Shown one piece after another: positions 8,693 through 10,793 of a stretch of DNA of 38,419 nucleotides. The stretch covers positions 1 through 38,419 of the forward strand of contig JAMPHJ010000016.1 in the NCBI GenBank assembly GCA_023663465.1. The letters run 5' to 3'. The position numbers and the translations under genes were made by a program. Source of the DNA: Muribaculaceae bacterium. GTDB lineage: Bacteria; Bacillota; Clostridia; Lachnospirales; Lachnospiraceae. A model generated the notes under the pieces. It saw nothing but the letters and a program-made list of their open reading frames with translations. It was not told the DNA's origin and ran no database searches. Numbering within the stretch: the stretch's first letter is position 1; every line of letters begins with the position of its first letter.

Positions 8693-10300
8693 TCATTTCG
8701 CCCTAAACCCGTCTTCTATGCTATCGCCTATCAGCGTACTTCTCTCCAGCATAACCGGGTAGCATGTTCCGGGGCATACATGGTAACTATTTATTTCAAT
8801 CCCGTCCGCCGCATAATAAATTGTATTTCCGTTGATTTCAAGACTCTGCATATTTCCGCTGTCATAGTCTTTCTGCGCGATATAGTAAGGTTCTTTCAGA
8901 TTGTGTTTTATAAAAACGCCCGCGTCCGTCACATACTGGTCCCAATAAGGACTGACGGATACCAGGATGCAGAATAGCAGCCCGCCTGTCGCAAGGCTGG
9001 CGAAACCTTTTTTCGGCATACTGATGCATTCCCCTACGGCAAGCATAATCACCGCAAATAGAAATGCAAGCCCATACCGGATAAAAGGCGCCATCAGGAA
9101 CCAGACTAAGATGTTTGCCCATATGGTAATATGAAGAATCCCGTATTTTAGTGAAAATTTCTCTTTTTTTACCGCCTTCACGCCCCAGATAAAAAGCTGC
9201 AGTGCCGCCCCCAGAACGACCGCGCCAAGAAACATCTGCTCATACCGGAACTGATGTTCCCACCAGACCGGAAGCCACTTAGAAACCGGCAAATCCACTT
9301 TTGCCGTATCGTACAGGCAGCGCCCCCAGACTTTAATCTGATTCGCGTCTATTAGAAGATATTCTTTGGGGATTTTCCATTCCGGGTGAAAAATATCGAT
9401 ATGTTCAAACGGATATAAAAGCCAGCCGGAAATCAGATAATTCCGAACCAGAAAAGGACATAAAATAACGCAGCCGCAAAGAAGACATGCCGCGATATCT
9501 TTCCACTTTTTCTCTTTTATCAGATAAACGGCGGGATAAACCGCCAGCAGGACAAGCATACATGCCGAAAACTTCAGCGTCGCCACAAAGACTGCGGCAA
9601 TCGACAGCAGCGCGTAGGGGCGGATGTCCGTACCGGAAACATTCGCTTCACACCACGCCGTCAGAATGAAGAAAACAAAAAACATAACCGCGTAGTCTGT
9701 CGCCGGGGACATGCTGCGCGTGATATTTACCAACGTATAAAATAAAATGCCTATTTTCATCATATCCGGGACATGATTCTCATGCCGTTTGAAATCTTTT
9801 AACCCATGAAAGGCATACAGACACATGACGACTTCCAAAAATCCCGTCGTCGTATGCAGGGAACGCCCCAACAGCCACCGCAGACTGAACATGGCGGCAA
9901 AGGCAAGATAAGAACTATTGTAGGCAAAATGCAGCTGCAGATTGCCCACGCCTTTTATCAGACCATACTCCTCATACAGCCGGATTGCCGCGGCATGATA
10001 AATATTCGTATCGGTATGAAATTCCCCTCTGGAAGTAAAAAAAGCGATTCCCAGAATGAAACAGGCATAGAACACCCCTTCCCAGGAACGCACCACCGGC
10101 GCATAGGTTTTCCAAAGCTTTCGCAGCGTATCCCTTCTCCGGTAAGCACAAAATAAGGCAATCGCAAACAATAAAATGTGAGAAACCGCCCCTATCCTGC
10201 CAAAAATGCTAAAAAACTGCGCATACACAGTAATTCCTATCATCCCCGCAACAAGATAGTGCGTCCATGAGAATTTAATGCTTTTTACCCCCCCCCTCAA
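8693..10300 (-). CDS. Polytopic membrane protein, main reading frame, split from its start by a G9 tract
   Basis: The 535-codon frame encodes about ten or more hydrophobic segments (for example HYLVAGMIGITVYAQFFSIF and HILLFAIALFCAYR) and a C-terminal soluble tail. It resembles glycosyltransferase-like or LIC_10190-type multipass proteins; the function is not known. The only upstream start in this frame is a TTG at 10300 with no convincing ribosome site. A well-placed ATG at 10367 with GGAGG lies in another frame and would add a first membrane helix. The two frames join if the run at 10288-10296 has eight G instead of nine. The gene is therefore either off, phase-variable, broken, or affected by a homopolymer error. 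Confidence 0.8.
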   Translation of the reverse strand: MRGGVKSIKFSWTHYLVAGMIGITVYAQFFSIFGRIGAVSHILLFAIALFCAYRRRDTLRKLWKTYAPVVRSWEGVFYACFILGIAFFTSRGEFHTDTNIYHAAAIRLYEEYGLIKGVGNLQLHFAYNSSYLAFAAMFSLRWLLGRSLHTTTGFLEVVMCLYAFHGLKDFKRHENHVPDMMKIGILFYTLVNITRSMSPATDYAVMFFVFFILTAWCEANVSGTDIRPYALLSIAAVFVATLKFSACMLVLLAVYPAVYLIKEKKWKDIAACLLCGCVILCPFLVRNYLISGWLLYPFEHIDIFHPEWKIPKEYLLIDANQIKVWGRCLYDTAKVDLPVSKWLPVWWEHQFRYEQMFLGAVVLGAALQLFIWGVKAVKKEKFSLKYGILHITIWANILVWFLMAPFIRYGLAFLFAVIMLAVGECISMPKKGFASLATGGLLFCILVSVSPYWDQYVTDAGVFIKHNLKEPYYIAQKDYDSGNMQSLEINGNTIYYAADGIEINSYHVCPGTCYPVMLERSTLIGDSIEDGFRAK

Positions 10301-10367
10301 GGATTTCCAGCCCGATAAGCGTACAAATACACGCTATATACAGCCAGCTTAACAACACCGCCACCAT
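10275..10367 (-). CDS. N-terminal segment of the membrane protein, out of frame after the G9 tract
   Basis: GGAGG, 8 bases before the ATG at 10367, starts the peptide MVAVLLSWLYIACICTLIGL, then EILEGGGKKH and a stop at 10275. It is a classic first transmembrane helix. With one G fewer the reading continues as EILEGG-VKSIKFSWTHYLV into the 535-codon frame. The promoter at 10469-10497 drives it. Confidence 0.75.
   Translation of the reverse strand: MVAVLLSWLYIACICTLIGLEILEGGGKKH
10288..10296 (-). repeat. Homopolymer of nine G (coding strand) at the frame junction
   Basis: Nine consecutive C on the plus strand (G on the coding strand), preceded by A and followed by T. A tract of this length near the 5' end of a surface or membrane gene is the usual layout of a slipped-strand contingency locus. 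G8 gives the full-length protein, G9 (seen here) stops after about 30 codons, and G10 also fails to join the frames. Confidence 0.9.
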
Positions 10368-10468
10368 AAATTCATCCTCCTACCAGAGCAGTTTTCACGC
10401 GGGCGCAAACGCCTATCCAGACTCCCGCTTATCCCTAACCGCCCTGTCTCATCATTTTATTTAAACAC

Positions 10469-10497
10469 AGTATATAAAACCTCCCTTTCCATGTCAA
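10469..10497 (-). promoter_or_regulatory. Strong promoter for the G-tract membrane gene
   Basis: On the minus strand a perfect TTGACA (10492-10497) and TATACT (10469-10474) are exactly 17 bases apart, about 100 bases before the ATG at 10367. This supports 10367 as the real translation start. Confidence 0.8.
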
Positions 10498-10591
10498 TCA
10501 CTACCCAATAATCCACCGGATTCCCAGGCATCGCTCTTCCGTCACCTCTTTACCGCCGAACCGATGGCGCCAAGGGCGCCGAGGGGAGCAG

Positions 10592-10725
10592 GGCAGATAT
10601 TATTCCCGCAAAGGTCCTTGAAAAACGCCGGCACTTAGCGAAAAAGACGCAAAGCGGCTTTTGAGCTTAGTACCGCTGCGTTTTTCACGGAGCGAGAGCG
10701 CGCCTTCGCGGGAATAATATCCGCC
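10592..10725. repeat. 134-bp palindromic interspersed repeat, copy A
   Basis: The copy starts GGCAGATAT and ends ATATCCGCC, near-inverted ends. The inner 100 bases (10610-10709) differ from copy B at about 11 positions. The ends extend into a local 31-bp inverted repeat (10579-10609 against 10708-10738, one mismatch). It lies between the end of the ABC-2 permease gene and the promoter of the membrane gene. The rest of the 10498-10793 gap is GC-rich with C runs and holds no convincing gene. Confidence 0.85.
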
Positions 10726-10793
10726 CTGCTCCCCTCGGTGCCCGCCCCCCCCCGGCGCCCGCCCCCCGGCATCCGCAACCGCAACCGCACCCC

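Follow-up and report, generated by a model that had tools for sequence, protein, structure and literature searches.

Slipped-strand phase variation is well known in Neisseria, where homopolymers in the porA and opc promoters tune transcription, and in Treponema pallidum the promoter of tprL also contains a homopolymer tract. The tprL gene is among the systems compared here (PMC7864442). For cgtB of Campylobacter jejuni, cells with 8 or 9 G have been reported (PMC6437147), and the G/C tracts of Campylobacter have been reviewed and its phasome surveyed (PMC8355987, PMC6321876). The poly-G loci of C. jejuni resemble the locus described below in that G tracts lie in the coding sequence of surface-glycan genes and turn the reading frame on or off; C. 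jejuni, however, is a Gram-negative pathogen, whereas the tracts considered here belong to a Lachnospiraceae lineage, sit in other genes and are commonly found in promoter spacers. Repeat tracts in both the promoter and the coding region, subject to slipped-strand mispairing, have been described for sabA of Helicobacter pylori (PMC2715451). Both sabA tracts (poly-T and CT repeats) occur at one gene, whereas here the tract is poly-G and its place varies by ortholog. In Bordetella, a C-stretch in the promoters of fim2, fim3 and fimX tunes transcription, for which an activator-distance model has been discussed (PMC1891110); the likeness lies in the promoter homopolymer, but in the present genus the tract abuts a TANNAT box 16–20 bases from TTGACA, and it does so at many loci.

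Gut species are known to vary stochastically by means of invertible promoters in C. difficile and Bacteroides (PMC11868660), and homopolymers have been considered in Akkermansia (PMC3048395, PMC13055324). Among the cases compared here, those in Clostridia are DNA inversions rather than repeat slippage, and Akkermansia belongs to another phylum. Within the Lachnospiraceae, a study of Mediterraneibacter gnavus found that expression from a capsule promoter was not bimodal (PMC13121745). Among the open-licence PMC matches listed (titles and abstract starts, partly the best 20), there was no report of slipped-strand phase variation in Lachnospiraceae; the two papers that contain both “Lachnospir” and “slipped-strand” were PMC6437147, in which the tract is that of C. 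jejuni, and PMC10305163.

The locus compared with these systems lies on a 38,419-nucleotide stretch (contig JAMPHJ010000016.1) of a Lachnospiraceae draft genome; this whole stretch is referred to as the window. The gene is on the minus strand and has the following parts:

10469..10497, minus strand: sigma-70-type promoter, TTGACA-17-TATACT, with 11 of 12 consensus matches, a spacer free of poly-G, and the same letters in the sister species
10376..10380, minus strand: Shine-Dalgarno sequence GGAGG, read from the sequence
10275..10367, minus strand: pre-tract frame of 30 codons, encoding the first membrane helix and then out of register, read from the sequence; the helix is kept in 18 aligned proteins
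10288..10296, minus strand: G9 tract and proposed slipped-strand switch, caught here in an OFF register; G8 in the sister (in frame) and in genome G038 (out of frame)
8693..10300, minus strand: post-tract body of 535 codons, a polytopic membrane protein of the LIC_10190 family (NF047510, 283 bits), for which TTG 10300 is not the natural start

Direct reading agreed with most of the original prediction for this gene. The frame opening at ATG 10367 behind a GGAGG ribosome site (10380–10376) encodes a first membrane helix and runs into nine G (MVAVLLSWLYIACICTLIGLEILEGGGKKH, 30 codons, ending at 10275), and the 535-codon frame is indeed listed from a TTG at the tract (10300) to 8693. The promoter at 10497–10469, which had been called perfect, is present and is the best of 12 sites in 3 kb (shuffles give 5.4 sites), but with 11 of 12 consensus matches it is near-perfect. 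As had been claimed, loss of one G joins the two frames and gain of one does not: with one G fewer the body falls into the pre-tract frame, as in the natural G8 copy of the sister species, and with one G more the tract is read into GGG TAA, that is, a stop.

The window body scored 283.4 bits against the NCBIfam model NF047510 (LIC_10190 family membrane protein; cut-off 100 bits), and the whole 556-residue protein of the sister scored 298.7 bits. A hydropathy scan placed nine hydrophobic segments in the body and one ahead of the tract. For the window protein, Pfam gave a sub-threshold match to DUF2232 only, a PDB sequence search gave one chance-level match (E 0.74), a PDB search with the protein’s profile gave no match, and the open-licence PMC text contained no paper naming LIC_10190, DUF8201 or NF047510. 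Based on the topology, a conserved HTDTNIYH loop and the company the gene keeps (acyltransferases, an EPS kinase and other polytopic proteins), our guess is that the product is a GT-C-like glycosyltransferase acting on a surface glycan; it stays a guess because no solved relative was found.

A homolog search over the 77 genomes of the genus, including the one studied here, found homologs in 75. In the sister species G034 (same contig as JAMPFM010000017.1), the protein shares 98% amino-acid identity with that of the window, the equivalent place reads CT-G8-TAAAAAG, and a single open frame extends over 586 codons from stop to stop. Besides the one G, the two sequences differ at the tract by a 3-base in-frame change and a substitution, so the change is not a clean one-step slip. 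The ortholog in G038, 55% identical, has a G8 in the same TM1–TM2 linker, and its reading frame is broken, as is that of the window copy. Tract length thus sets the register, the gene being broken with G9 in the window and with G8 in G038, and whole with G8 in the sister. All 17 orthologs at 64–72% identity (L003–L019) have intact frames and lack a coding tract.

The first helix is found in all 18 aligned proteins (the sister’s and 17 others), with W8, Y10 and G19 invariant, which places the tract inside the protein and not ahead of it. We therefore rejected TTG 10300, downstream of the tract, as the natural start of a protein to which the upstream frame would be unrelated, a reading suggested by the listed 535-codon frame that opens there. 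A purine stretch resembling a ribosome site precedes the upstream start in most of the genes, and none is evident before 10300; we regard a start at this TTG as extremely unlikely. The original prediction had named two kinds of relatives that would speak against a switch. Proteins starting naturally near 10300 were not seen, the helix ahead of the tract being general among those aligned. Close relatives with an intact frame and no tract were found in part: the description fits all of the orthologs at 64–72% but not the closest relative, with its in-frame G8.

Five of those 17 orthologs (G012, G011, G062, G053, G072) carry G9–G10 exactly between the -35 and -10 boxes, with TTGACA followed by TAAAAT, TATAAT or TATGAT (TANNAT) and spacers of 16–20 bases. 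Long poly-G homopolymers are therefore present both in the coding region of the window gene (G9) and in the promoter spacers of five orthologs (G9–G10), where their length sets the spacing. Taking the first ∼33 codons and the promoter spacer together, 8 of the 20 loci at ≥55% identity (L001–L020) have a G8–G10 tract, and the other 12 have no G/C run longer than 5 in either place (for L017, within only 119 bases upstream). Among the more distant loci L021–L030, a G or C run of at least 7 was found in 0 of 10, and L035, L038 and L042, from outside the G genomes, have no G or C run of at least 8. When the density of G9 across the genus was used for a rough Poisson estimate, made post hoc and assuming 22 loci of 680 bases each, it gave P ∼1e-8 for six tracts and 2e-5 for four independent ones. 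In the protein tree, carriers of promoter tracts appear in three places and carriers of coding tracts in two; its deep forks are open and long branches meet, and for each of the two labels at most one change is required by the starred branches.

We interpret the G9 tract as a slipped-strand (simple-sequence-repeat) phase-variation switch acting on translation and as one contingency locus of a genus repertoire, with a probability of roughly 0.85. The switch had been predicted from the window alone, and the tracts in relatives support it. Replication slippage would change the G run by one base; at G9 the ribosome would leave the frame past the first helix and stop, so that the gene would be OFF, and in another register, such as that of the sister, the whole LIC_10190-family membrane protein would be made. 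For this gene in several relatives, switching would instead affect transcription, through the promoter-spacer tracts. Across the repertoire, tracts of ∼9–10 G would act from the coding sequence, from the -35/-10 spacer or, in one case, possibly from the Shine-Dalgarno position, and the genes so controlled would be mostly those of surface proteins and of membrane enzymes with a probable role in making or modifying glycans of the surface. From the sequences we infer slippage as the mechanism, reversible switching within a clone and an effect on expression.

The same comparisons bear on two other explanations. One is that the gene is a recent pseudogene, with an ordinary frameshift in a gene that is being lost and no reversible switch; it is broken in both the window and G038, and the 17 of 17 intact orthologs at 64–72% have no coding tract, as this would have it. 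Against this, two species that are far apart both have the break precisely where a long G run stands, and other orthologs carry promoter tracts. The dN/dS of ∼0.08 between window and sister over 530 codons, with 1 base difference in the 66 pre-tract bases, also argues against gene loss, weakly because it mostly reflects shared history. We consider loss of the gene very unlikely. The other explanation is programmed slippage of RNA polymerase or the ribosome, by which DNA of a single tract length would constantly give a share of full-length protein, without a genetic switch. Long homopolymers can cause transcript slippage, and the two frames overlap at the tract. However, the sister has the whole protein in one frame and needs no such slippage, the tracts in the promoter spacers of orthologs would serve no purpose, and tract lengths differ between near species. 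We regard this explanation as distinctly unlikely.

Farther upstream, the intergenic region contains two more features:

10745..10753, minus strand: second G9, intergenic, upstream, abutting the inverted repeat; the sister has no counterpart of the tract
10574–10743: inverted-repeat element, intergenic, with 41-nt arms that are 93% complementary

The second G9 was considered as a promoter switch for this gene and rejected, as it lies ∼250 bases upstream of the promoter, beside the inverted repeat, and has no sister counterpart; it is probably not part of the switch. Related copies of the inverted repeat stand beside other tracts of the own genome and of the sister (L065, L110, L138), and the element is therefore probably a dispersed palindromic repeat.

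Where the original prediction described a single-locus switch, the locus itself stood, but its place in a genome-wide and genus-wide set had been missed. The own genome contains 19 G runs that are at least nine long. By exact length, its runs number 19 of G7, 12 of G8, 16 of G9, two of G10 and one of G11; random runs should fall several-fold with each added base, so the bump at nine, with G9 exceeding G8, is more than chance. Twelve of the tracts are coding (the window tract, L049, L051, L052, L053, L056, L057, L060, L061, L062, L063 and L064), and of the genes in which they lie, 11 encode membrane or secreted proteins and the twelfth an exopolysaccharide kinase. Eight are out of register, three in register (L051, L057, L062) and one at the 3′ end of its gene (L052), the register of L063 being judged from a plausible continuing frame; these registers are near the 1-in-3 expected of free-running ones. 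The products comprise the LIC_10190 protein, an MBOAT protein, an Acyl_transf_3 protein (below the Pfam cut-off), and an EPS tyrosine autokinase (TIGR01007). Signal-like starts are seen in LRR/DUF285, GH53, Flg_new-repeat and fibro-slime proteins, and one more signal-like protein belongs to no family; the last three products are polytopic and matched no family. No clear role is apparent for six runs (the second window run, L050, L054, L055, L058 and L065).

Some individual tracts have features of their own. In L052 (C33:10829 of the own genome), the G9 is at the 3′ end of the exopolysaccharide tyrosine autokinase gene, and slippage there would alter only the tail or stop. L063 (C173:11466) and L057 (C116:35724) differ from the ten other coding tracts in that their sense strand carries C, read as proline codons. 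TAAAA follows 5 of the 19 runs of G9 or more (window 10288, L053, L055, L059, L064); these are the letters of the TAAAAT boxes behind many promoter tracts, and at least three of the five runs are coding. L059 (C136:18742 of the own genome) is a G11 seven bases ahead of an ATG, near the Shine-Dalgarno position, in front of a gene for a secreted-looking protein, and its counterpart in the sister (L138, on C78) is a G9. A second ATG nine bases further on is also a possible start for L059/L138. This pair possibly represents a third class of switch, acting on ribosome binding.

Lengths were compared with the sister by pairing only runs of at least 8 in both genomes, which left 14 of the 31 own runs paired and 17 without a partner. 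Where the own run was G9 or longer, length differed in 4 of 9 pairs (window, L054, L059, L065), a between-species comparison with small numbers; where it was G8, length differed in 0 of 5, a result favored by the pairing because a G8 that had shrunk to seven in the sister would go unseen. Longer runs differing more would be the direction expected of length-dependent slippage. G038, for which completeness is given as 100, has 33 runs of at least 9, of which 23 are G10, and six runs of G8; 30 of the 33 were read, and of these five clearly sit in promoter spacers, while long frames contain several.

Homopolymers are prone to sequencing error, the own genome is a draft of 182 contigs (86% complete), and most of the other genomes compared are drafts too. 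Since the sister has G8, the window tract could also be a true G8 that was misassembled or miscalled, the gene being simply intact. An error of one base would nevertheless leave the tract in place, and it would not explain the recurrence in G038, the five ortholog promoters, the excess of G9 over G8 or the classes of genes concerned. We consider such an error unlikely, and if it did occur here, the assembly would have caught the switch in its ON state.

Promoter-spacer tracts were sought more widely with the pattern TTGACA-N3..13-G8-N0..4-TANNAT, using the reversed pattern as a control. The genus gave 57 matches (56 distinct) in 27 of 77 genomes, with one for the control, and none of the matches was in the own genome or the sister. 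In a sample of the family, 25 of 299 genomes (298 genera) together had 33 matches (control, 0), or 24 of 297 genomes with a match after two own-genus genomes were removed, and a phylum sample gave five matches in 5 of 398 genomes (control, 0). For spacer statistics, a duplicate G037 row was dropped from the genus set (57 to 56) and two own-genus G038 rows from the family set (33 to 31). Spacers of 16–20 bases made up 53 of the 56 in the genus, against a share of 0.45 expected from independent placement (P 3e-15 if rows were independent, which related sequences are not). The mode was 19 (34 of 56), and just three spacers were of 17, so most assemblies seem to have caught these promoters off the textbook optimum.

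Genes downstream of the promoter tracts were examined at 30 loci derived from the 57 rows; with L095 dropped (the same site as L073) and L089 having two sites, these gave 30 proteins. As the downstream gene we used the longest frame whose start lay no more than 700 bases away, and wrong starts are possible. Seven of the 30 matched LRR_5 (BspA-type), five DUF285 and three Cache sensor domains, and five were the LIC_10190 gene itself. By eye, many had signal-peptide-like starts; one GH77 glucanotransferase and one protein kinase were not obviously surface proteins.

Taken together, the tracts have the look of a surface repertoire that is phase-variable at multiple loci, in a Lachnospiraceae genus for which we infer a gut habitat and commensal life. 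We think it quite probable that this commensal genus has a Campylobacter-like poly-G phasome, with many surface loci per species and tracts of ∼9–10 G in three positions (the spacer abutting the -10 box, the Shine-Dalgarno position and the coding sequence) that differ among species for the same gene. The mechanism is known from Campylobacter, Helicobacter, Bordetella and Neisseria; what appears to be new is the lineage and the scale. If such a phasome exists, draft genomes of these bacteria would hold seemingly “broken” surface genes that are really switches, surface variation would be possible without invertible promoters, and populations would be mosaics of surface variants that arise without DNA inversions.
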